Assembly (NCBI GenBank): GCA_002284615.2
Contig: MU069883.1
Span: 10,499 to 32,998 of the forward strand
Reading direction: 5' to 3'
DNA from: Dunaliella salina
Taxonomy: Eukaryota; Chlorophyta; Chlorophyceae; Chlamydomonadales; Dunaliellaceae
DNA: 22,500 nucleotides
The first letter of the stretch is position 1. Each line of letters begins with the position of its first letter. Under the pieces are notes generated by a model. It did not search any database and had not been told where the DNA came from. It worked only from the letters and a program-made list of their open reading frames with translations. The position numbers were made by a program, and so were the translations under genes. Of this stretch, positions 1 to 20,060 are shown piece by piece.

Positions 1-229
1 CCGCATCTACCTGAAGCGTGAGGACCTGAACCACACGGGCACCCATATCATTAATAACTCTTCACTTCTTGTCTCTCAAGTGTGCCCCTGCTATCGCCCC
101 TCTAAAGCCTGATGACACCCACCCCCGCATCTACCTGAAACGCGAGGACCTGAACCACACCGATGCCCACAATATCAACAACTGTCACTTCTTGTCTCTC
201 AAATGTGCCCCCGCTGTTGCCCCTCTTAG
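1..229 (+). repeat. Tandem copies of the 5' part of the PLP-lysine exon
   Basis: The intron end and the first ~23 codons of the exon at 230 are present in two earlier copies. One starts near or before base 1 and one near 107, with offsets of 124 and 123 bp. The copies have lost the AG acceptor alignment (AAAG at 104-107). The PLP lysine codon has changed to Asn in the middle copy and to Ile in the first. Only the copy at 230 runs on into [12 protein letters not shown]. Confidence 0.9.
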
Positions 230-392
230 GCCTGATGGCACCCACCCCCGCATCTACCTGAAGCGCGAGGACCTGAACCACACGGGAGCCCACAAGATCA
301 ACAACTCCTTAGGCCAGGCCCTGCTGGCCAAGCGCATGGGCAAGCAGCGCATCATTGCAGAGACAGGGGCGGGCCAGCATGGTGTGGCGACG
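230..392 (+). CDS. trpB: trpB exon with PLP lysine (first exon seen)
   Basis: The acceptor is CCCCTCTTAG, and the exon starts with one base completing a split codon, then 54 codons beginning [14 protein letters not shown]. It carries the PLP lysine in GAHKINN, then [12 protein letters not shown] and [14 protein letters not shown]. The donor is GTGAGT at 393. I chose this start because the plant family has an arginine before PDG at this point and because a pyrimidine-rich tract and AG sit exactly there. An unspliced open frame continues 5' through an older duplicate of the same segment, but that is not a normal part of TrpB. Confidence 0.9.
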
Positions 393-3300
393 GTGAGTGC
401 TCTCACAAGTACAAGACGGTCTCACATGCATATCAAAGCTGCAGCACTCATGCGAATGCTTGAGCACTCAAGCATGTTATGGTATATTCAATCTGTGAGA
501 TTTGGCACCCACAAGCAAGCTATCATGGCACTGGAGTAGCTGCTAGAGTCAGCTGTAGAGATCGTCTGCATGCCTAAATGAGCAGAGAAAGCTGTGTTTG
601 TGTGAGGTCGATGTTGACGAGGCCGTTGTACCACATTCCGCGTAATAACAGACTTGTTGCCCTCCCCAGAAATGATTAAAAAAAATTTACGCGCACTGCA
701 AGCGCACTTCAAAATGAAGTAGTTAAGAAATTGTGCATCAGGTTGTGCATGGGAGCATCAACCATGCACAAACATGGCTGTCCTGGGGAGAGCCGTTGTT
801 GGAGGGGCTGCAATTGAGTAAGAAGGCACGCTTCGGGACAAGGACATTTTCCGCAATGTTTTTGTGTCAACCTGGCAGTCACCGTGCCATGTAAAGAACA
901 TTTCAATGGGTGCTTGCATAGTTTCTGCACTGTGTGGGAGACTTCCGATTTAAGGTGAGACACACCAATCTGAATGACTGGGAGAAGCGTGGTTCATGAT
1001 ACCAAAAACACAAGGCTGAGAGGAATCGTTACCATAGATAAAGATGATGTTCATTACATTTGTTGCTTTCATCTCCGGTACCGATCGCTTTTTGCTTGTT
1101 TCTTTCGGGGTGTTCGGTGCGCTGGGCCACAAGTCTCCTTGTCGCCTGGATTGGTGGGAGGGATTCGGTTCGCTTTCAGCCTGATCCCCCAGGATAGTAA
1201 AAGGGTCAATGGCATTAAAAGATGCAGACTTTGTGCATGTGCAACCCTAAACCTTGCAGCCTAGTTTGCGAACGCTACTCCTGTATTGTCTCCTCGGCAT
1301 GCCAATTCCCACTCCCAGTCCAAGAGCTCTGGAGCGCTCTGTTTGCAACCCTTGTGCAGGCCACTGCATATGCTTGCCTGGACTCATGCGCACTCTTTCT
1401 GGTTGCAATTCTTGCGCAGGCGACGGTGTGTGCTCGCTTGGGGCTGGAGTGCATCATCTATATGGGCAGCAAGGTGAGACCTGTCTTTCTTCTGTCCATC
1501 GCCCTGAGCCTTGCACCCAAACCTGTCTGTTTGCCAACTCTATTCTTCACTGCATTCACATGTGCAGCATGTGTGCAGTGTCCATTTCAATCATTGCATG
1601 ATCAGCTGTGACTGCCTCTCTGCCTGCAAACTCAGGAGAGTTTCTTTTCTTTCAAAAATGTAATCGCATCAAAAAATATGATTAAATTATGTCTTTCGTT
1701 GTAAAAATTTCCACCTGGAAGTATGTATAATACATTGTTCTGGTTTAGTTCTTCAATGCATCCATGTGGACAGCAGCACGTGCATTATGTGTGCATTTCC
1801 TTGAGGTGTCCATTGGAATTTTTTGTTTGATAAGCTATGACAGGCTCTGCTACATCATTACACACATTGCATTATTGTATGGTCATCTGTGACTGGTTCT
1901 GGTACATCATTGCGTATCATTGTAAGCCGCATAGTCACAGTCACCACAATTACATATGCATGCGTGTTTTGAAGGACATGAAGCGCCAGTAGCTGAATGC
2001 GTTCTGCATGCGCCTTATGGGTGCAACACATAATTGTTGCATGGTCAGCTGTGGCTGGCTCTGCCATATCTTCACGAGCCACACAGTCACCACCACCGCC
2101 GCCACATGCATACACACTGTACTATTATACAAACTGTACTTACATCGTACACAAGGACATGGAGCGCCAACAGCTAAACGTGTTCCGCATGCGCCTGATG
2201 GGCGCTGAGGTGCGCCCAGTCAGCACCGGCACGGCCACCCTCAAGGACGCCACCAGCCAAGCCATCCGCGACTGGGTGCGTGTGTGAATGCGCAAGCGTG
2301 TGCGCTTTGGATTTGTGTACCATGCGGGCTCAGTTTTCACTGCATAGTGCCTTTGTGTGTAAAGGGGCGGTGTCAGCATGTTTGAAGGGGCTGTAGATGC
2401 TCTATGTGTGTATCACTTCTTTTCCATGAGGCAGTCATTTGTGCCTTCAATTTCTTTGTGTGTAGGAAGCAACAAATACACCTCTTTTCCACATCTAATT
2501 TACTACATCTCATTTCAGGTCACCAGCGTAGGAAGTACCCAATACATCCCATTTCTACATCTCATAAATTGCATCTCTTTCCAGGTCACCAATGTAAAGA
2601 GCACCCAATACACCTCATTTCTCCATCTCATTCACTACATCCCATTCCAGGTTACCCGTGTGGAGAGCACTCAATACACCTGATTTCCACATTTCATTTA
2701 TTGCACCTCATTTTAAGTCACCAGTGTGGAGAGCACCCACAATGTATTGTATATAAATTTCATTTCAGGTCACCAAGGTGCAGAGCACCCACTATTTCTC
2801 ACTGCTGCACATCATCTACTACACTCCATTCCAGGTCACCAACGTGGAGAGCACGCACTACATCTTGGGCTCTGCTGCTGGCCCCCATCCATACCCCATG
2901 ATGGTACGAGACTTCCAGTCCGTCATTGGCAAGGAGACCAGAGAGCAGGTGCGCTGTTTGGTCGCTCTGCCCTGTTATCAGTAGGGCACAGCTTGATTGA
3001 TTTGTGGCTCTTGAAATGGAATTGAGTATGGTTGTGAGCTGCTGCATTTTTGATTGCGAATGGATTTCCGTCCAACAAGGCAAAAAATGGAAAGCGATAA
3101 AAGGCCTCAGTTGTTGCAATTACGTCCTTCAGAGCTCGTACTTTCATTAACGTGACCCCTAGCTTGGAACCTCGACTAATGGGAAATTTCAGCATGGACA
3201 AGTCTCAAACAGACAAGTATTGGAAGTGTTGGGATCAGGGGTTTACAAGGGCCTCATGGGCGCCGTCCAAAAGAAAGAGCCTGGACCTGTTGGTCAGGCG

Positions 3301-6300
3301 CCACAACCCTGTGTGATATCCTGCCTATTGCCAGCCAGGCCACCTCTGCCCATTCTGAGCACATAGCCTGAAAGCTAGTAAAAAAAGCAATTTTTCAGCG
3401 CTGAGCTGGTCCCATTTGGTGAACCCTGCTGCGCGCTAGGTCTGCATGTTTGCGCGCTCAGGCAGCAAAACTCACCCCCAGTGTGCCGAAACCCTCCAGC
3501 TGCACCCCCAAGCCTGTAGGTGGACCCCAGGATGTGCCCTGAGAGCACAGGTGGCCACCTGCTGCGAGCTGGCGGAGGGCTGTCCTAGGGGTGCTCCAAA
3601 GCCAGTCGAGAGGAGTGATGACGATAGGGAACGGCTTTCTATTAATATTTAATGAAATTTAGGCACTTCAGCGGAGTGTTGGGACGGGTCCCGGATTTCA
3701 AATGCGAACCCCTTTCAAGTTCCGCGGACAGCCAGTCATTTGAGATTAAATACGCTGTTTTGATTTTATTTTGAAGGGACTTAGTCAACCACTTTTCGCA
3801 GGCAGGCTTTAAAATCCGAAAAATCCGCCGCGGCGCAGCAAATTCAGAATTCTGGTTGCGTAAATTTGCGAGATTTGTCATTAAAACTGCATTGACCTCC
3901 TCGGATGTGTGCCCACAAGCAAACTTTCCAAAGTTTTTAGCTCCAGCAACTTTGCGGAGCCCGGCAGCTCCTCCCAGGCACCCATCTTCACGGCCCGCGG
4001 CGTCAGTGTTGATGATGACAATCCCAGGCATCGGCCAGGCCAAACAGCGGGTGCGGAGGTGGCCTATCGGGGCCTGGCCAGGCCTCCCAGGTTATGCATG
4101 CTTGTCTGTGCGATGAAAATCCGACGAGCATCAGGGGTGCTCCCGACAACCCAAAATCACTTGCAATATTACCAGCAGGCTGCCCAAACACTCGCCGCTG
4201 CAGTTTGGGCCTGAGCAGGGTCCCTCAAAAAATAGCCATTCCCAGGGTTGACCAAGAAGTGCAAGAATGGGGCACAACTGATGCTCCTTAATTATGTAAA
4301 TATTAATAGAAAACCATCTGCCAATCCAAAACACTGCATGGTGGGACCAGATGGAAGAAATGCTGGTTTCTGATGCACAGAGCTCAACCTGAGCCACATC
4401 CAGATACCACCAAAAAGCCAAATTTGGCATAGGTTGTGGCGGCTGACTGTTGGACTACTTTCACAGGTGCAGTCATTGGCATCAAGCCTGCCTTAATTGG
4501 CTGAGAGGGTGTTAAACATTGCTAACTCTTATGGCCATCCGACAAATTGGTTACAAAAATCTCAGGTCTAATAATCAATGCATTGATTGTCTGACAGCAC
4601 TTGGCGCACCCAACCCTTCCTTAGAACTGCTTCGTGCTCTGCAATTTTTAATATTTGGACCAGGAGCCTTCAAGAAGCATGACTTTTTGTCGGATGGCTA
4701 TAATTTTGGGAAGCCAAGGGCCAATCCCATTAAGAATTCTATATCTGGAATCCTGGGATCAAGGGCTATTGATTGGTATATATGAGTCTGATCTGNGGNG
4801 GGGGGGGGGGGGTCAAGGGGGGGTACAGGTTTCTGGGACACCCCCTCCAGAATTTTTCTGGGCCACTTCTACAGAATTCTAAAGACACCATTGGATTCCT
4901 GAGCTCGAGAACTGTCTATTGGCACCCTCTTTGGGTAAATTGAGTAAAAGGGGGGGTCTATGTGCATGGCTGGGAGTCAGTGCCATGCGCGCAAGGGTGT
5001 GGGCAGCAGGGGGTGCAGAGGCGAACATGCGGCAAACCACTTCAAACTTCCAGGATAGTGATAATGTATGATATGATTATGCATGGTGAAGTCAGGAGGG
5101 CAGTTAGTGGACTTGCAAGCCAGTTGTGGGTGCCTGAAAGGGCAGGTGTGCATGAGCGTCCGCTGGTCAGTTTTTGTCCCATAACTATGCTGCAACTCAC
5201 TTTTCCAGTGTGGTGAGTGTGCAGATGGATAGCTATTTCAAAAGGAGCAGATTGATACCCTTTTTGTCCCAGTAGGGTTACTGCATGGGGGGTTTTGGGG
5301 TGGGTGGGTGGGTCAAGGGGCCAGGTGCCTGCCAAGACCAATACCTGTCAGCTCCGCAAAGCGGGTGCTGGCCAGTAGTATTTCTGCACTATGTCGTACG
5401 GGCGTGTTCAGTCTGTACACGCCCAAGTGCTTGCCAAGACCATACCTGAGACCAAGAATATACCATGTGTCCGGAGTATGTGCTCGCAGTGAGGTCCTCA
5501 GAGAGCTCTGATGAGAGGCCTAGTACAGCAGACCGTACAGCAGGATCTGGTGGTGGGGGCGGGGAGCCAACAAGGGGCAAATTCTTTGACTGTGATGTCC
5601 ATAGACAGCCTCTGCATATGATTGGCCGCCCCTGCTGGATGGTGCTGCCGGGTTGTGCAGCCAGCTGCAGAGGGCTTGCCAGATCCTGCTGATTTGCTCA
5701 GTATTTGCGAACTGCTGATTTGCTGATTTGCTGATTTGCTAAGTATTTGCAGACTGGAGAATTGGAATAGGAAAAGAGAAAGGTAAATTAGCTTTGCTCA
5801 TTTGGCTACCTGTGCTGTTTCCCCTGCAGTGCATGGAGAGGTGGGGAGGTCTGCCAGACATTGTGCTGGCCTGTGTGGGTGGCGGCTCCAATGCCATGGG
5901 CATCTTCAATGAGTTTGTGGAGGAGCCCAGTGTCAGGCTCATTGGCGTGGAGGTGCGTCGCAAACAATCCTAATTACTTAACCAGCTCATTGGCGTGGAG
6001 GTTTGTTGTACACTGTGTTGATTACTTCACCAGGCTTACAGCATGGAGGTGCGCTTTACTCAGTGTGTTAAACATTGTACCAGGGGAGTTGTCTCCTTCT
6101 TATGTTTGAGAGGACGCAGAGCATGGACAGCTGTGCTGGTTTGGAGGAAGCTGAGCACAGGAATGGTGGAGGCACAGCGGTGAGCACATCAGAGGGGTGG
6201 GTCCTGACTTGTGGAAGGTGTGTGAACGTGCGCGCAGGAGGAGGGGGAAAGCAGAAGGATACTGCACGAGCAATGGTCCTGCTTCAAAATGCCCTTCACG

Positions 6301-8424
6301 TTGGCATGTCTTCTTGTCCAGGGGCCCTCTCTCTCTGCTCCTGCAGGCTGTTGGTGAGGGTATGGTATCCAAGGAGCGGATGCCCTCAGAAGTCGTGTGC
6401 CTGTTTGACCCTTTGCCTCTCTCTCTGCTCTTACAGGCTGGCGGTGAGGACGTGATGTCCCAGAAGCATGCTGCCCTCGGACGTCATGTATGTGCCTGCT
6501 TGACCATTCGCCTCTCTTTCTGCTCCTGCAGGCTGGCGCTGAGGGCATGACGTCCCAGAAGCACGCTGTCCTCCGAAGTCATGATTGTGCCTGCTTGACC
6601 ATGGTCCCGTCTCTCTGCTCCTGCAGGCTGGCAATTGTGATGTTTAAGAAACATGATGCCCTCAGAAGTTATGTGCCTGCTTGACCATTGGCCTCGTTGC
6701 TGCTGCAGGCTGGCAATGAGGGCGTGATGTCCGAGAAGCGTGCTGCCCTCACAAGTCATGTGTCTGCTTGACCAATGGCCTGTCTCTCTGCTCTTACGGG
6801 CTGGCGGTGAGGGCGTGATGTCCGAGAAGCACGCTGTTCTCAGAAGTCGTGTGTGCCTGCTCGACCATGGGCATGTCTCTCTGCTGCTACAGGCTGGCAG
6901 TGAGGGCGTGATGTCCAAGAAGCACGCTGCCCTCAGAGGTCATGCGCCTGCTTGACCTTGGGCTTCTTTGTCTGCTCCTGCAGGCTGGCTGTGAGGGTAT
7001 GGTATCCAAGAAGCACGCTGACCTTGGAAGTCATGTGCTTGCCTGTCCCTTTGCCTCTCTCTTCTCATGCAGGCTGGCGGTGAGGGTGTGATGTCCCAAA
7101 AACACGCTGCCACCTTGACCAAGGGATCGCCAGGCGTGCTGCACGGCTCATTGTCCTACCTGCTGCAAGATGATGAGGGCCAGATCATCGACCCCCACTC
7201 TGTTAGTGCTGGGTGAGTGGCAGGTGGTCATTCATGGAGGGCAAGCCTTCCCCTCAAGGAGGGTGAATGGCAAATGTTCAAGCAGGGAAAGGCGTCCAAG
7301 GAGGGTGAGTGGCTGGTGCTCAAGCGGGGGCAGGTGATTAAGGAAGGTGAATGGCAGGTCATCAAGTAGGGGCAGGCGTTCGAGTTTGTGAGTGGTGGGT
7401 GTTCAAGGATGGGCCTGAAGAGGCATTGTCGCAAGTGGAAACTCGCTGGGCTTCGTTTTGCAAATCCTGCTGACCAGCTCTTCCATATCCAAGGGCAGCT
7501 CAATGGTCCCATGCCCATGTCTGGTATAGGCATCAGCTTTGTAGGCCGTCCCCAGCTCCCATAAGTTGTAAAGGTTTGCTGTGTGATTGTTGTTGCTGCT
7601 CTGTGTTGGTTCAGTGCTTTCCCACGGCGCCCTCAACTCTCAAAAACACTGCCATATACCTTGTTAGACTAGTTAACTCTCAAAAACACTGCCATATACC
7701 TTGTTAGACTTAGACGTGTTCGGAAATGAGTTAAGTTGCAACTCTGACATTTATTGACACAGAGCCCTTGGATATGCCCCCTGCCTTGCAGCTTGGATTA
7801 CCCTGGCATCGGACCAGAGCATGCATTCTTCAAGGATGCTGGCCGTGCCGAGTACCACGCTGTGACGGATGCCCAAGCCCTGGAGGGTTTCAAGCTGCTG
7901 AGCCGTGCTGAGGGCATCCTGCCGGTGAGTACTGCTGGCAAACAGTGTTCAATGTGGCTTGTATTCTTATCAGTTATCTTGGTGGTCGCCAGTTGGGGGA
8001 TGAGTGGGGAGAGGAAGCCAATCAACGAAAGGGGTACACAGTGTTGTTTAAGGATGCATGAATCAAGAGAAGAGCAAGAGGATGAGCAAGTACGGATGTT
8101 TGCTCCAGCATGTTTGCCCCACCCCCAGGGGACCAAAACGACAAATGTTATACAGGCCCTAGCATGTCAGGTGCAAGCTCAGGTTACTTCTTCAAAAAAA
8201 ATGCGTACCCCAGTTCTTGGTTATCTTCCCTGAGTGTTCAGAACAGATCTGCTCATTTTCTGCTGGCCTTCGTCCTTGCTCTGCAGGCTCTGGAAACCAG
8301 CCACGCCATTGCCTTCCTGGATATTCTGTGCCCTGACCTCCCTGGCAGCCAAAGCATTGTGATTAATTGCTCTGGACGTGGTGACAAGGATGTGAACACC
8401 GCCATCCGCTTGTTAGGCATGTGA
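230..8424 (+). CDS. trpB: Tryptophan synthase beta chain, 8 exons, 5' end outside window
   Basis: Spliced CDS join(230..392,1420..1473,2156..2275,2835..2948,5830..5952,7073..7212,7792..7924,8287..8424), about 327 residues plus stop. TrpB is the PLP enzyme that condenses indole (channelled from the alpha subunit) with L-serine to give tryptophan; in algae and plants it is nuclear-encoded and works in the chloroplast. In order, the sequence shows [15 protein letters not shown] with the PLP Schiff-base lysine (codon 294-296), AETGAGQHG with the catalytic glutamate, [25 protein letters not shown], the phosphate-binding loop [26 protein letters not shown] and SGRGDKD. Every intron is GT-AG and all phases agree. 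Mature TrpB is about 390-400 residues, so roughly 65 N-terminal residues plus any transit peptide lie upstream of base 1. No break is seen, so the gene looks functional. Introns are 1027, 682, 559, 2881, 1120, 579 and 362 bp. The odd feature is tandem duplication of splice junctions in the introns. Confidence 0.95.
1317..1419 (+). repeat. Tandem copies of the acceptor region of the 1420 exon
   Basis: A copy of CAG plus the exon start lies at 1360, exactly 60 bp upstream of the true acceptor. It reads [10 protein letters not shown] where the true exon reads [12 protein letters not shown] weaker third copy is visible near 1317-1345. Splicing at 1360 would insert 20 codons with no stop. Confidence 0.8.
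1420..1473 (+). CDS. trpB: trpB exon 2 of window
   Basis: A 54-bp, phase-0 exon encoding [18 protein letters not shown]. The acceptor is CTTGCGCAG and the donor GTGAGA. It matches the plant TrpB stretch between the GAGQHGVAT and DMERQ motifs. A diverged copy of its start, with its own CAG acceptor, lies exactly 60 bp upstream. Confidence 0.9.
1585..2075 (+). repeat. Duplicated block with pseudo-copy of the 2156 exon
   Basis: At 1975-2027 the start of the 2156 exon is repeated 181 bp upstream in degraded form. It aligns to [17 protein letters not shown] but has an in-frame TAG and an Arg-to-Cys change. The flanking motif resembling ATTGCATGGTCAGCTGTG occurs about four times (near 1590, 1833, 1873 and 2032), so the whole block has been copied repeatedly. 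Confidence 0.75.
2156..2275 (+). CDS. trpB: trpB exon 3 of window
   Basis: A 120-bp, phase-0 exon of 40 codons from [19 protein letters not shown] to SQAIRDW, a strongly conserved TrpB segment. The acceptor is ACACAAG, which has a weak pyrimidine tract; the donor is GTGCGT at 2276. The next codon of the protein comes from the exon at 2835, which fixes the donor here rather than a few bases later. Confidence 0.92.
2453..2834 (+). repeat. 66-bp tandem array of acceptor plus exon start
   Basis: Units begin at 2453, 2519, 2585, 2651, 2717, 2769 and 2835 (the true exon). Spacing is 66 bp except for one 52-bp step. Each unit has a pyrimidine-rich intron end, usually CAG, then about 30 bp like the exon start (GTCACCAACGTGGAGAGCAC). 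The first unit has no clear acceptor, and the fifth has AA where AG is expected. Confidence 0.95.
2835..2948 (+). CDS. trpB: trpB exon 4 of window
   Basis: A 114-bp, phase-0 exon of 38 codons ([13 protein letters not shown] to VIGKETREQ), including the conserved [13 protein letters not shown]. The acceptor is CATTCCAG and the donor GTGCGC. The first ten codons, with the acceptor, are also present in several degenerate upstream copies at a 66-bp period. Only this copy runs on into [12 protein letters not shown]. Confidence 0.95.
2949..4795 (+). other. Unrecognised part of the large trpB intron
   Basis: I recognise no gene here. Open frames in this stretch resemble no family I know and have no splice context. 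A 17-bp imperfect inverted repeat (TATGGCCATCCGACAAA near 4529, its complement near 4686) suggests a small foldback. It ends at an ambiguous G-run with N at 4796 and 4799. Confidence 0.5.
4796..4812. other. Ambiguous bases in a G homopolymer
   Basis: Two N calls (4796, 4799) stand in or beside a run of more than ten G. The length and sequence here are unreliable. The G-run adjoins the end of a family A repeat copy that has C-runs in its other copies. Confidence 0.9.
4800..5325 (-). repeat. Dispersed repeat family A, copy 1
   Basis: Its reverse complement aligns over nearly its whole length with 13055-13490, and in part with 10010-10335 and 12275-12420. Shared landmarks include GGCACCCACAACTGGCTTGC, ACAGTTCTCGAGCTCAGGAA and C-runs. 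I see no coding capacity, terminal inverted repeats or clear target duplication, so it is an unclassified non-autonomous element. It sits inside the trpB intron. Confidence 0.85.
5326..5685 (+). other. Unrecognised intron sequence with a 100-bp spaced repeat
   Basis: The short phrase TGCCAAGACCAATACCTG near 5333 recurs in similar form near 5433, about 100 bp later. Nothing else is recognised. Confidence 0.4.
5688..5752 (+). repeat. CTGATTTG microsatellite
   Basis: The words CTGATTTG and AGTATTTGC are repeated in tandem, about five CTGATTTG copies, about 80 bp upstream of the acceptor at 5829. Confidence 0.85.
5830..5952 (+). CDS. trpB: trpB exon 5 of window, glycine-rich PLP phosphate loop
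   Basis: A 123-bp, phase-0 exon of 41 codons beginning [14 protein letters not shown] and containing [10 protein letters not shown], the loop that holds the PLP phosphate, then [16 protein letters not shown]. The acceptor is TTTCCCCTGCAG and the donor GTGCGT. Two extra copies of the donor end follow at 6001 and 6049. The preceding intron is the longest (2881 bp). Confidence 0.95.
5936..6096 (+). repeat. 48-bp tandem array of exon end plus donor
   Basis: The end of the 5830 exon with its donor (ATTGGCGTGGAG/GTGCGT) recurs at exact 48-bp steps, with donor positions 5953 (true), 6001 (GTTTGT) and 6049 (GTGCGC). Sequence after each donor is also similar (ATTACTT..ACCAG). Use of a later donor would read into TAA soon after 5953. 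Confidence 0.9.
6300..7072 (+). repeat. ~91-bp tandem array of acceptor plus exon start (8 decoys)
   Basis: Exon-like starts lie at 6347, 6437, 6532, 6627, 6709, 6800, 6893 and 6984, then the true start 7073; steps are 90, 95, 95, 82, 91, 93, 91 and 89 bp. Each unit has a CT-rich tract, CAG (ACGG in the unit at 6800), about 38 bp encoding variants of [13 protein letters not shown], then a conserved linker containing GAAGTCATGTG and GCCTGCTTGACC. No unit has a donor after the exon stub. Confidence 0.97.
7073..7212 (+). CDS. trpB: trpB exon 6 of window
   Basis: A 140-bp exon (46 codons plus two bases) encoding [18 protein letters not shown], then [19 protein letters not shown] and [10 protein letters not shown]. 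The acceptor is CTTCTCATGCAG and the donor GTGAGT at 7213. It is preceded by eight degenerate copies of its first ~38 bp with acceptors, and its donor is followed by four donor-like copies. Only this copy continues past KHAA into TLTKG. Confidence 0.95.
7211..7410 (+). repeat. ~42-bp tandem array starting at a splice donor
   Basis: Donor-like GGGTGAGTGG or variants occur at 7213 (true), 7263, 7305, 7347 and 7388, in units that also contain GGCAGG..TCAAG..GGGGCAGG. Steps are 50, 42, 42 and 41 bp. Confidence 0.85.
7635..7710 (+). repeat. 40-bp perfect direct duplication
   Basis: A 36-bp phrase starting AACTCTCAAAAACACTG occurs at 7635-7670 and again at 7675-7710 without a mismatch. It looks like a recent tandem duplication in the intron before the 7792 exon. 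Confidence 0.95.
7792..7924 (+). CDS. trpB: trpB exon 7 of window
   Basis: A 133-bp exon: the first base completes the glycine codon split by the previous intron, then 44 codons follow ([20 protein letters not shown] to [10 protein letters not shown]). The acceptor is CCCCCTGCCTTGCAG and the donor GTGAGT. No tandem copies of its splice sites are seen. Confidence 0.95.
8287..8424 (+). CDS. trpB: trpB terminal exon and stop
   Basis: A 138-bp exon of 45 codons plus TGA at 8422-8424. It contains [11 protein letters not shown] and the C-terminal SGRGDKD motif, ending in AIRLLGM, the normal end of a plant-type TrpB. The acceptor is TTGCTCTGCAG. No tandem copies of this junction are seen. Confidence 0.95.
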   Translation, partial: ALETSHAIAFLDILCPDLPGSQSIVINCSGRGDKDVNTAIRLLGM

Positions 8425-9249: not shown

Positions 9250-10009
9250 GCCAGAGTAATGCTGTTATGTTTGTGGACTTGCTGGGCAGTAATTTTCGTT
9301 TTCTTTTGGACAAAAAGAAAGTGTTGCTGCCCTGGAGAGCGGGAGGGTTTTTTCCGACTCTGCTTTTGACACATTACGAAAGAAAGAAGGGAGACCGCCT
9401 CCAGACAAAAAGGCTGACAGCTGGCCTATCATGCAGAAAGAGTCGTTGAAAAAAGGGAAGGTGGGGGTTACATAGCTATACCTGCCGGGGTGGGTCCGTT
9501 TAGCTGAAGCAGAAAAAAGTGCCTGTACCTGGACCAATCTGAAAAGTATCACTTGAAGCTCAGTCACGGCATTCCAGGCATGTGGACACGAGCATGGCCA
9601 TAAAGAGTTTTTTTACTGCATGGGGGCGTGGAACTAGACTACACAGATGTTGAGACTGAGTGCGTAGATTCAAGTAAGGATGGAACTTACTGTTGTTTCG
9701 CTTGTTGCACAAGGTGGGTGATTGTTAGGAAGGTCCCTACCCCCAAGAGAAGGCTCCTCTTGGTCTGAACTCGTGGGGCTCACTCTCAGCTTCAGTGTTG
9801 TCTCTTGGGTCTTTTCTTAACGATCTGGCCTCTGCCCAGCATAGACTTTCTTCCTTTCTTTCTTTCAGTTGTGCTCCCCAAGGTAGCCCAATGCGTCGAA
9901 GAAAGTTCTTGAACCAGCTGATGTCTTAGCATGAGCTAATTTCGTGTCTGCTTGCAGGAGGGTAATAAAAAATGATAATGGACGTCACAGGAGGGTAGCA
10001 AAAAATTTT
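9250..10009. other. Intergenic DNA, nothing firm recognised
   Basis: It holds a degraded family C copy (about 9455-9545). A pyrimidine-rich stretch at about 9841-9870 has a GCATAGACTTTCTT phrase resembling the LINE 3' tail at 15258. No convincing coding exon is seen on either strand. Confidence 0.4.
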
Positions 10010-11447: not shown

Positions 11448-11599
11448 CAGCAATTGCGTACGTACGAGGTTCTGCACTGTTGGAACTGAATAACTTTATG
11501 AAAACGATCTCTTCTATTTACATCGACATATGATTCAATGAAGGTCCAATGGTGGATTCTATGCCAACTATATCAAGTGCACTTTTTTGTTGGTCTCAT

Positions 11600-12423: not shown

Positions 12424-12568
12424 TCTGTGATGCCCTTAGATGTTCTGGGCCGCACGCACGCTACACTGATGCATTCAACGAGCCTATCCTTGGCCGACAG
12501 GTCCGGGTAATCTTTGAAACTGCATCGTGATGGGGATTATTGCAATTATTAGTCTCCAACGAGGAATA

Positions 12569-12600
<32 letters not shown>

Positions 12601-12611
12601 TTACGTCCCTA

Positions 12612-12647
<36 letters not shown>

Positions 12648-12729
12648 GGTGTGCTGGTGAAGTGTTTGGATCGGTATCAATGGGGGGCAACCTCTGTTGG
12701 TACTGAGAAGAACATTTAACCCTCCCACC

Positions 12730-12762
<33 letters not shown>
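12424..12762 (+). rRNA. 18S rRNA 3' fragment, degenerate (pseudogene)
   Basis: The sequence from TCTGTGATGCCCTTAGATG to AAGGTTTCCGT is the last ~340 bases of eukaryotic 18S rRNA, including TTTGTACACACCGCCCGTCG and GAAGTCGTAACAAGG. It lacks the rest of 18S upstream, and no ITS or 28S follows. It differs from very conserved 18S sequence: a 4-nt deletion (GGGGATTATTGC for GGGGATAGATTATTGC), CCCTACCC for CCCTGCCC, GAATACC for GAATGCC, and altered bases before the CCCTCCCACC motif. It is therefore probably a non-functional genomic copy. Confidence 0.93.
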
Positions 12763-12763
<1 letters not shown>

Positions 12764-13060
12764 TTTGTTCTTCACACTTGCGGATGAGAAGGGCAGTGAA
12801 AAGCTGATCACCCCTAGTGGGCTTGAAACGCCTGCAGCACCATCAAATTGCCGGGACATCCTGATAAGTTGCTGGTACCTCTTGGTGACCGAAAGATCGC
12901 AGAGAACCATGGTGAAAGCCGTGGGTATGGTAATAATCCAGCAAATAGGGAAGATCGGCAGCCAAGTGCTAAGGGAGTTGAGAAGGTTTGCCTTCACTCC
13001 TATGCATGCAATTCACAGAGTAAATGGTGGTGGGTTTCCTTGTATGGGGGCTTAAGTCGG
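12763..13060 (+). ncRNA. Group I intron (IC1-like) core in the 18S fragment, 3' truncated
   Basis: It begins right after CCGT of 18S, the insertion site numbered 1512 on E. coli 16S. P1: exon UCCGU (12758-12762) pairs with GCGGA (12780-12784), placing the required U-G pair at the splice site. P3: CACCAT (12838-12843) pairs with ATGGTG (13024-13029). P4: TTGCCG pairs with CGGCAG, a covarying change from the usual TTGCGG/CCGCAG. Conserved core blocks are CAAATTGCCGGGA (12844), GGGTATGGTAATAA (12923), GCAGCCAAGTGCTAAG (12958) and TTCACAGAGTAAATG (13012), close to the Tetrahymena intron. The 3' end and 3' exon are missing: family A sequence starts near 13061. No homing endonuclease is present. 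Confidence 0.9.
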
Positions 13061-13499: not shown

Positions 13500-14820
13500 A
13501 AAAGAAAAGCCTGTGCATGCCAGAGGCTGCATGTGTTAAGGAAAGGTCCACTAACTAACAAGCTAGCAAGCTAGCAAGGTAGCAGTGGCCGCACCAGAAA
13601 GCCCTCAGAACCTATGGTAGACACAGCTAGTCTAGGAGAGCCAGAAACAGGTCTAATGGGGATCTGGAGGGTTGCTGCTCGCCATGCGTCTGGATGCTCG
13701 GACTCTTCTTCTCCCATCTTCCGCCGCCGCACGTCCAGCAAAACCCCTCCCAGAAGCGCCTTGAAATTAAAGAGCGTATCTAGTGTTTTTGACAGTGGTT
13801 GGTCTTTGAATAGCATGGTCCCTAAGCTTGGCTGCTACTGATCTGGCTTTTTGTTTGGTCAGGCCCAGATTAATAAAAGGTGTAATTGTGAAGTCATTGC
13901 AAATGGTACCGGCCACACCAACTAGGATGATGTGTAAAGTCACTTTGTTATTCCTGTTTGGATTTCTGGAGCTGCGGGTTTTAAGTCTGGTTATGGTGTG
14001 AGAATGTTGGGTCACTGCACGCTGTAAAGTGATGGAGGGGTTTGGGTCGGGACAGAATTTCAGTTCAACAAGATGTATGTCCCTGTCTTAAGGAGGGATC
14101 TTAGGAGGATCAAGGTGAGTTTGTCTGCCTGGAAGAGGGCGCACAAAGATAGCATCAGTGCGGGTTTGGTGCCGGGCAGTGGAGCCAGCACCATTAGGGA
14201 AAACCCAATCTGGAATTGCTCTCGATATGTTTTCAGGGATTTGTATGCCCTGATCCAGGAGTCTCTCGTCACTGCAGCCATCCATACCAATAATGAATGA
14301 GCCATGCCGGCCTTTACTGAGGGCTTTTACACAAAGACTTAGGACTGCATTGCGTGTGTTGGTGTGCATCCCGCTCATTGTCGAGTTTGTACATCAGAGT
14401 ATGTGGTCAATGTGATCTATATCATCACTTAGTGGGCATCTTCCATTACTGGAAGAGTTGAATTTGAAGGCATGACTCTGATTGTACAGTGTATCCGTAC
14501 GATACTTCATTACGTTAATTCGCTGTTTCAGGGTAATTCCTGGATTTTTCCAGAAGGAATTGCTGATCTCTTTATTAGCAAGCTGTGAGGTTGGGTTGCA
14601 AGATTCAGTGTTTGCAATGGTGGCTGGTGGTAGGGCATCATTCAGTTTCTGCCATCTCTGGTCGTGGTGGCCAGAGGTGTCAGCAGAGCCAAGCTTGTGT
14701 TTCTTGTGCATGTGTGCTTTGAGTTTGTCGTCCAGGTTGGTGAGGTAGTGCATCGGGAAAGCGTGGGATTGGACCCATATACACATCAATTGAAATCTCT
14801 CGATGTGAGGAAACATTTAG
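13500..14820 (-). mobile_element. LINE fragment 1, C-terminal part
   Basis: On the minus strand, broken frames encode the same C-terminal region as the larger LINE copy at 15340-17513. They include KAHMHKKHKLG, ISNSFWKNPGITLKQRINV, a degraded zinc-knuckle region (CPLSDDIDHI), then IQIPENISRAIPDWVFP, TDAIFVRPL, HLVELKFCPDPNP and NKVTLHIILVGVAGTI. The acidic-residue-plus-ExK pattern (TDA..VELK) is like a PD-(D/E)xK nuclease. It starts after the RNase H domain, so it is 5'-truncated as LINE copies usually are. Stops and frameshifts make it a pseudogene. Confidence 0.85.
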
Positions 14821-14844
14821 TTTTTGAGAGGACTTGGTCATGAC

Positions 14845-15300
14845 GTCCAACAAAGTGACTTTACACAACATGGTGTGACCTGTACCATTTACAATGAGTA
14901 TACAATTACACCCCTTATAAACCTGGGCCTGACCAAACAAAAAGCCAAATCATTAGCAGCCAAGCTTAGGAACCATGCCATCCAAAGATTAACCACTATC
15001 AAAAACACAAGACACGCTCTTTGCTCTCAAGGGGCTTCTGGGAGGGGGTTTGCTGGGCGTGCGACGGCGGAGGATGGGAGAAGAAGAGTCCAAGCGTCCA
15101 GAGGCATGGCAAGCAGCAACCCTCCAGATCCTCATTAGGCCTGTTTCTGGCTCTAACGTAGGCTAGCTGTATCTAGTGTAGGTTCTGGGGGCCTTCTGGT
15201 GAGGCCTCTAGCTTTCCAGTTGGAGGACCTTCCCTTAATGCACGCGGCGTTTGGCTTGCATAGACTTTTCTTTTTTCTTTCTCTTTCCTTTTCCATTATT
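14845..15300 (+). mobile_element. LINE fragment 2, 3' tail, inverted to fragment 1
   Basis: The plus strand encodes TPLINLGLTKQKAKSLAAKL, then RNHAIQR and a terminal SSNPPDPH, matching the C-terminal end and 3' UTR of fragments 1 and 3 (by eye about 85% to fragment 1). It ends after CCTTAATGCACGC (15233-15245) and a T/C-rich tail. With fragment 1 it forms an inverted repeat with arms of about 400 bp and a spacer of about 0.8 kb. Confidence 0.85.
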
Positions 15301-15339
15301 TTTTCTTATCACCTTCCTGCTGCTTGCCTGAATTGCTGT

Positions 15340-17513
15340 GTCTGAACTCCTAGCACACAAAGAAAAGAAAAGAAAAGAAAAACTACACAGGCAGTGAAAA
15401 CACTCCCCACATCAATTAAGAAAAAGGGGATTCCTAGGGCCGAGGCACCGCGTATCCTCTTCACCGAGAGAAAACAGAAGAAAGAAGTCAGTGGGGATCA
15501 GGAGGGTTACTAGCAGTATCCCGTGCCTGACCTTGTTGAGAGTTGAAAAAAGTTTTCTCTATAGCGCGTCTGGTGCTGGCAAGTTTGTAGGCATACAGGA
15601 CAGAATGAGCATGAAGCTTCCGAGCAAGCTTAATGGCCTTGTAAGTGTCAAGGCCAAGCTCCTTTAGAGGCTCCAATGTGTGTGGGATGTAGATGACTCC
15701 TCCCACACCTAACAGGATAGTATGGAGGGTGACTTGAGCTGAGGCTCTAGAAAGATGACGACAAAGGTCGCGGTGCTGCTGCTTGGAGGCCTCAAGCTGG
15801 CTGTTGGGCCGTGTGTCCTCACAGTACTTGACTTCTACAAGGTGGATGCGTCTCTGATCTGGGTGGAGCTGACTGGGGTCACGAGCCTTGGATGTGGGTA
15901 GAGTTGCTGTGGCTGGCGCTGAGTCCTCCCTGTTTCTCACGCGCCCCCCTGCACTTCTCAATTCATAACGAGGTTTCGACCTAGACGCTCTTTTCAGAGG
16001 AACAACTAATAGAGCATCAGGCCGGCTGGAAATGAGCCTATCCTTATTAGGGAAGCGGGGTGGAAAAATATATTTAGGGAGGGTCCTATTAGTAGCATGT
16101 TCTGGGATCTGTAGGTCTTGCAAGGCAAGACGGTCTGCACTGCCAGTGTCCATGGAGGCAATACCTGCCCCAAGAGGGCCTTTGCTGATGGCTTTTAGGA
16201 GGATTCTGCTGGCAATATTGTGTCGCTCAGGTACCATACCAGACATGGTTGAATTTTTGCATCCTGACAAGATGTGAAGGGCACTGTCGAGTTCCCCACA
16301 GAGGGGGCATTGTAGGCTGGTGGAAATTTTGAAGCGCACCGCGTGTTTTTGATTGAAGAGGGTACATGTGCGGTATTTGAAATGTGTTGCCTCATTTTGA
16401 AAGAGAGTGTTGACATGGTCCAGAAGGCATTGCTGATATTTTTGTGGATCTTGGGGGGTAAACTTTGGTAGAAAGAGTAGTACCCTGTGTTGGTGTTGGC
16501 CTTTCCAAGTCTGTGTTTTGAGTGCATGTGTTTGCGTAAAGCATCATGGATGTTGGAGAAGTGTTTAAGCTTCACGACAGGTGGGTTCAGACGCCTAGCA
16601 CTTGCATGAGTGCAGGGAGTTTCCTCAAAGGCAAGCCAGGTGGTGTCAAGAAAAGGATTGCCTTCGAGGTTTGCACATGGGAAGGTTGTGTCTGTGTCAT
16701 TATTCTGAATGGCCTGATGCTTGGCAATGGCATCTGCGCATTTGTTGCCAACAATTCCAGCATGAGATTTCACCTTGAAGAAATGGATAGGGGTAGGTGT
16801 GTTGCATATGAGCTGTATGATTAACTTGAGGATGTGGCCTTGGACATGCTGGTGATGAAGTTCTGGGTAGAGTATTTGCCTTCTGGTCTGTTCTAGAGAG
16901 CAAAGGCTGTCGGTGGCAATGCAGCGATATCCTAGGTGAATGGCAACTGCTATTGCCGCCAATTTGGCTCTGGTGATGGTATGGGTGATTCCTGCTCCAT
17001 TCGGCTGGACATGGCTGGTGCTGACAGTGGCGGGGTGGTAGACCCCTGCACCAATCACTTGTTTTCCATTGTGTACATGGCAGCTACCGTCCGTGTATGC
17101 CCACTCTCTCCAGTTTTCAACTTTGCGTTCCAGATGAGGGCTTGATGATGTGAGTGGTGGAAGAGTTTGTTGGCTCTGAGTGGCATTCTGAGGGGTTTGT
17201 TGGTAGGCAGAGGGTAGCTTTTTGAATTTATTAAGGCCAGTTTCAATTTCTGGGTGTCTGGGATTGAGGATTGGGTCATCGCTGACGTTTCTTTTCAGTC
17301 ATCTTGCCTCATGGATGTCTTCTTTCAGGCCTGTGAGCCAATTTGGGTTGTTCTCGTTCAGGCGGATTCTTGCAGCGGTATTCCAAACAGCAATTATATG
17401 TAGGCTCCAGGAGCACAGTATTCTATTCTTTTCCATCGGACTGGTCTGGTTAAAGGCCTCTGTGTTTCCGCTCAGCTGCCCACGTGGGCAATTATAGATA
17501 TGTGACCTTACTT
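15340..17513 (-). mobile_element. LINE fragment 3: RNase H, zinc knuckle, PD-(D/E)xK-like domain
   Basis: This is the longest copy of the family, on the minus strand. Domains in order: a linker (IIAVWNTAARIRLNENNPNW); an RNase H domain with YTDGSC (about 17090), THTITRAKLAAI, IATDS and GNKCADAIAKHQA; a CX2CX7HX4C knuckle (CPLCGELDSALHILSGC, about 16259-16309); then RPDALLVVPL and HLVEVKYCED (about 15822-15846), resembling a PD-(D/E)xK nuclease; and a terminal ASNPPDPH with TGA near 15488. Breaks are an in-frame TGA at 17299-17301, a frameshift near 16330-16345, and Lys in place of the RNase H catalytic Glu. Reverse transcriptase is absent (5' truncation). The 3' end is a (CTTTT)n tail, seen on the plus strand as AAAAG repeats at 15359-15382. 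The order recalls Dualen/RandI-type elements of green algae. Confidence 0.85.
15359..15382. repeat. (AAAAG)n microsatellite, tail of LINE fragment 3
   Basis: About five AAAAG units lie directly beyond the 3' UTR of the minus-strand LINE, as is common for LINE tails. Confidence 0.85.

Positions 17514-19990: not shown

Positions 19991-20060
<70 letters not shown>

Follow-up and report, generated by a model that had tools for sequence, protein, structure and literature searches.

The original paper on mirages is said to have dealt with Adh. The closest described structures to those reported here are the mirages of the amphioxus globin genes, for which the relevant passages describe units of 10-160 bp at acceptors and donors, AG or GT in many of the copies, haplotypes that differ in length and an mRNA that is normal (PMC3087553). 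Further cases, in the part of the literature concerned with them, are PGBD5 and troponin C (PMC3902484). The arrays that we found at splice junctions of the halophilic green alga Dunaliella salina belong to the mirage kind already known from amphioxus and it is the lineage that is new. As in amphioxus, the repeated unit extends over the exon-intron boundary, acceptors and donors are both hit, the unit length is specific to the locus (here roughly 40-190 bp), AG or GT is kept in many copies and a regular mRNA is expected. Unlike the amphioxus cases, several independent arrays occur in one gene, the host is a green alga, and the structure is known here from the DNA of one assembly alone. The D. 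salina copies are also more diverged (about 58-90% identity) than those of amphioxus Gb6 (81-100%), and the passages on PGBD5 likewise call its copies imperfect.

Other repeats near splice signals are related less closely. Internal tandem repeats at human exon-intron boundaries likewise alter splicing or intron structure but, in the sections that describe them, they lie within recent segmental duplications and come with transcript evidence and novel introns, unlike those of D. salina (PMC2812944). In Chlamydomonas and Volvox, tandem repeats reach their highest density in introns, where they are commoner near the ends; these introns are repeat-rich like those of D. salina, but their abundant motifs are dinucleotides such as GT/AC, and copied exon edges are unmentioned in the relevant passages of that survey (PMC3887541). 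Intron gain of the AGGT type also involves tandem duplication at splice signals, where, in the account consulted, a new intron arises from exon sequence, whereas the introns of D. salina bear surplus copies of their own edges (PMC3443670). A literature search found no report of a green-algal mirage, although it covered mostly titles and the starts of abstracts in a partial collection and is weak evidence of absence.

The trpB gene and the surrounding DNA

The window, a stretch of 22,500 nucleotides, corresponds to C448:10499-32998 of an assembly of 284.9 Mb in 1403 contigs. Its joined exons, read together, encode the tryptophan synthase beta chain (TrpB), and the gene model was 100% identical to the public D. 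salina TrpB (P0001) over the 323 amino acids compared. Eight exons with GT-AG introns were placed on the forward strand by a purpose-written spliced aligner with this protein as the query. These are located at 230-392 (whose translation includes GVAT), 1420-1473, 2156-2275, 2835-2948, 5830-5952, 7073-7212, 7792-7924 and 8287-8421, the last of which carries the codons up to the final Met followed by a TGA stop that was read from the sequence. The first acceptor was entered as 229 in the junction scripts, which is one base off 230. Regular use of the exon-proximal sites is expected, as judged from homology and from the annotated D. salina TrpB, which matches them. A TrpB search of viral contigs found no relative.

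Several other features were observed in this and other pieces of the assembly. Non-coding DNA at 12465-12786 of the window holds two stretches of eukaryotic small-subunit rRNA (Rfam RF01960), probably a nuclear fragment copy. Long open frames on the reverse strand at 14394-17298 include an RNase H-like stretch (YTDGSCHVHNGKQVIGAGVYHP) and, judged by eye, may be the remnant of a non-LTR retrotransposon. A perfect (AC)32 microsatellite is found at 19993-20057 and a comparable (CA)n run lies directly 5' of a CCT6 acceptor in L050. Elsewhere, a reverse transcriptase domain (PF00078, E 3.6e-25) was matched on the reverse strand of L022 at 7163-8305, and the PCIF1 WW domain family (PF12237, E 1.4e-10) on the reverse strand of L030 at 2664-3701.

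Arrays at the trpB splice junctions

Each junction was compared with its surroundings up to 1 kb away, in a window of 40 bases scored +1/-1 and with a cut-off of at least 16. A local copy at or above this cut-off was found for seven of the 15 scored trpB junctions, namely five acceptors (230, 1420, 2156, 2835 and 7073) and two donors (5953 and 7213). Shuffling the window sequence in two-base blocks, which keeps dinucleotide content in part, gave none among 450 windows at a reach of 1.5 kb. A sequence-only reading had placed all seven junctions in boundary-spanning arrays. All seven do reach the cut-off, but clear crossing, with at least four aligned bases on both sides, was observed at 230, 1420, 2835, 5953 and 7073 (5 of 15), while the copies at 2156 and 7213 are marginal and cross the junction by three and two bases respectively.

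All of these arrays lie on the forward strand. A 123-bp array of 2.5 copies covers acceptor 230 (1-307; TRF and BLAST); its unit contains about 45 bp of intron and 78 bp of exon and its upstream end is cut by the window edge. Acceptor 1420 is spanned by a 60-bp duplication (1338-1441, junction-copy alignment). At acceptor 2156, direct-repeat search and alignment showed a duplication with an offset of 181 bp (1820-2205), where about 50 bp of the exon start are copied at 1972-2024 and the three bases that align across the acceptor are intronic. Acceptor 2835 lies in a 66-bp array with five decoys (2460-2868; TRF and BLAST), donor 5953 in a 48-bp duplication (5937-6033; direct-repeat search and alignment) and acceptor 7073 in a 91-bp array of 8.6 copies (6326-7111; TRF). 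A 42-bp array starts at donor 7213, with which it shares two exon bases (7211-7384; TRF and alignment). TRF and direct-repeat searches recovered these arrays, with TRF periods of 123, 66, 91 and 42 and copy offsets of 60, 181 and 48, in agreement with the unit lengths of 123, 60, 181, 66, about 91, 48 and about 42 bp that had been proposed. TRF also detected a perfect 40-bp duplication in an intron interior, away from the junctions (7635-7710, forward strand). The repeat families of different trpB introns had no members in common among the 20 of 23 families compared.

These copies might instead be remnants of whole-exon duplications or of intron-creating internal duplications of the AGGT type, which are well documented in the passages concerned (PMC3443670). 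In trpB, a short stretch is shared between both ends of the first intron, where donor 393 and acceptor 1420 match with a score of 15 and the regions at 384-400 and 1410-1430 have GCGACGGTG plus a little more in common. This likeness may reflect a conserved coding repeat (ATAT) or an old duplication of the AGGT type. However, BLAST returned only partial copies for the trpB exons at 230, 2835 and 7073 and never a whole exon; no second copy was found for those at 1420 and 5830 at the threshold used. For these three exons and for two of CCT7, each copy was observed to consist of one exon edge together with intron sequence (thresholds of 1e-2 and 1e-3) and to sit inside an intron. An origin of this type therefore appears highly improbable.

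Junction arrays in other genes

Five genes besides trpB were examined (truA, carB, CCT6, CCT7 and CCT8). In these, 11 of 65 scored junctions, five acceptors and six donors, reached at least 16 with bases aligned on both sides. The matches per scored junction were 1/12 in truA, 2/13 in carB, 0/13 in CCT8, 5/22 and 1/2 (L045) in CCT7, and 1/2 and 1/1 in CCT6. Shuffled junction windows of these genes, in which dinucleotides were kept where the walk succeeded and single bases otherwise, gave one case in 330. Junction arrays are thus present in trpB, truA, carB, CCT6 and CCT7, and absent from CCT8. They were found on four contigs (C448, C736, C417 and C445), where 162,953 of the 200,000 bases taken from C448 are N. 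The earlier proposal that independent arrays with decoy sites exist at several boundaries of one gene is therefore borne out, and they extend to other genes.

The carB gene was located with E. coli CarB, and CCT6, CCT7 and CCT8 with PF00118; none of these was picked for its repeats. In contrast, truA shares its contig with trpB and was noticed through its arrays, which means that it is not a blind pick, and it was therefore counted but omitted in a separate count. This count, restricted to the genes found by homology, gave 10 of 53 junctions. The CCT8 model was checked against a D. salina protein (P0131), and human CCT7 was the template for the CCT7 model. Exon ends are less certain in carB, where they rest on the E. 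coli template, than in TrpB and CCT8. Those of truA were initially judged by eye, and this reading then served as the query of an alignment; the exons of CCT6 and the L045 exon of CCT7 were also placed by eye. The low-complexity CCT6 acceptor at 1523 (L050) and the undefined outermost ends in the models of truA, carB and CCT7 were left out.

An array of about 450 bp starts with the carB donor at 4779 of the reverse complement of L039, and its units carry further copies of this donor and of the exon end before it. In CCT7, BLAST showed that two exons (9763-9879 and 11503-11586 of the joined C417 stretch) are flanked by partial copies, which derive from the 5' part of the exon on the upstream side and from its 3' part on the downstream side. 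The CCT7 donor at 1612 of the same stretch reads GAG|GCAAGT and probably begins a GC-AG intron. The gene beside trpB, at 1508-8030 of L020, encodes a TruA-like tRNA pseudouridine synthase. It contains two arrays with acceptor-like units, one of 27-bp units within the interior of an intron and one of 44-bp units immediately 5' of an acceptor. An 86-bp array of 8.7 copies was observed at the start of L023 (1-749).

Junctions compared with intron interiors

A boundary-directed process, driven for example by transcription, R-loops or splice-site sequence, would duplicate exon edges preferentially and lengthen introns from them. Against this, interior intron windows overall score oftener than junctions do: in genes besides trpB, 553 of 2118 (26%) reached at least 16, compared with the 11 of 65 junctions. 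Since intron windows may fall in junction-touching arrays, which biases all-interior rates against boundaries, the rates were recounted outside such arrays, where 326 of 1840 interior windows (17.7%) reached the cut-off. For the genes found by homology, the corresponding values were 406 of 1699 and, outside junction-touching arrays, 189 of 1437 (13.2%), to be set beside the 10 of 53 junctions. In trpB, with windows in such arrays again set aside, 21 of 489 interior windows reached the cut-off, compared with seven of 15 junctions. The share of windows at or above the cut-off drops towards the junction, from 0.32 of 578 windows at 200-400 bases to 0.125 of 48 within 5 bases. When stratified by intron, the junction counts were 13 of 68 against 13.65 expected with trpB, 7 of 54 against 9.45 without it, and 6 of 14 against 4.2 for trpB alone (P 0.17). 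The share of interior windows reaching at least 16 differs strongly between genes (CCT8 1%, carB 11%, trpB 23%, truA 35% and CCT7 37%).

Random placement of whole arrays was also considered. Under unconstrained placement, 11 of the 40 arrays of five genes touch a junction, with 11.3 expected. A constrained null, in which placements covering an exon were forbidden, used the same arrays, two of which were split by hand mid-exon where they enclosed one. Here 15 of 42 arrays touch a junction in all genes including trpB (7.2 expected, P 0.002) and 7 of 10 in trpB alone (1.6 expected, P 0.00025), a gene that was chosen for this very pattern. Both results favour a boundary-directed process, as do the two CCT7 exons with arrays on both sides. 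With trpB left out, the count is 8 of 32 against 5.5 (P 0.18), or against 4.9 (P 0.10) when at least four bases over the junction are required. With truA left out as well, it is 7 of 24 against 4.0 (P 0.09), or against 3.5 (P 0.04) under the same requirement.

CCT7 supplies most of the array excess in genes other than trpB. A mild boundary excess in these genes is possible and of borderline weight, and an excess of this size could arise from slower decay of the exon copy. The process preferring exon-intron boundaries that had been suggested from trpB is not demonstrated by these counts: the homology-found genes lean towards it, while the full set without trpB shows no clear excess. Taken with the empty junctions of CCT8 and the flat arrays described below, we regard a boundary-directed process as unlikely.

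Properties of the decoy copies

Decoys were observed to be about 58-90% identical to their junction. An assembly artefact might be suspected because the published D. salina draft, which may be this assembly or another, was built from short reads plus about 10x PacBio. At these identities, however, the decoys are unlikely to be one locus assembled repeatedly, and arrays of the same kind occur on four contigs, which makes an artefact extremely improbable.

The AG was kept in register in 14 of 17 decoys and the GT in 8 of 10, together 22 of 27; this count covers 14 junctions, three of them without a decoy at the cut-off, and leaves out the later CCT7 junctions. Such retention would be expected of functional arrays, whose decoys might have a regulatory role or take part in recursive or alternative splicing. 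Per base, however, the AG was retained at 0.91 and the adjacent exon-derived bases at 0.87. AG and GT are thus kept about as well as their exon-derived neighbours, which gives no indication that selection acts on decoys in either direction. An apparent retention above chance (22 against 13.3 expected from identity squared) was discounted on the same grounds, as bases on the exon side are retained to a similar degree. Among the best copies, taken from 18 junctions, mismatches amount to 36 of 312 bases on the exon side and 43 of 252 on the intron side. The 123-bp copy in trpB also reads AHNINN in place of AHKINN. The lysine of this motif presumably has a role in the enzyme, and that copy would therefore not code for a working one. 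A function of the arrays in splicing is accordingly very unlikely.

Introns had been proposed to lengthen serially inward from the exon. In the two arrays examined, no directional gradient was observed: the identity of copies was not related to the distance between them, with rho 0.01 for the 91-bp array and, for the 66-bp array, one unit of which was out of register, rho -0.24 (P 0.39), and the junction copy of the 91-bp array was no closer than the other copies. This flat pattern fits neutral minisatellite turnover, and nothing in it points to introns growing inward from the exon.

Discussion

The arrays are probably of the mirage type, in which minisatellite turnover within introns also catches splice junctions and is kept where the exon-proximal site still yields a normal mRNA. 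Introns of D. salina would undergo frequent local tandem duplication in units of about 40-190 bp; replication slippage, template switching or unequal exchange is the probable mechanism. A duplication over a splice junction would leave additional copies of the exon edge within the intron and would be tolerated when splicing still picks the copy that is joined to the full exon. With median lengths of 114 bp for exons (44 exons) and 707 bp for introns (36 introns), exon definition is presumably the reason why decoys would be ignored. Surplus copies would then drift as decoys, while selection would hold the exon copy and keep it recognisable for longer. It is doubtful that the exon edges of some D. 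salina genes are true duplication hotspots, with arrays at half of the junctions of single genes, some exons bracketed, introns grown from their edges and strong decoys ignored.

The extension of mirages from amphioxus to a green alga suggests an origin in fast minisatellite turnover rather than in a special trait of cephalochordates. Junctions that bear decoys may mislead gene finders and short-read aligners. If about one junction in six has such decoys, as in this small sample (11 of 65), D. salina would be a natural test of how splice sites are chosen among look-alikes and of how introns lengthen.
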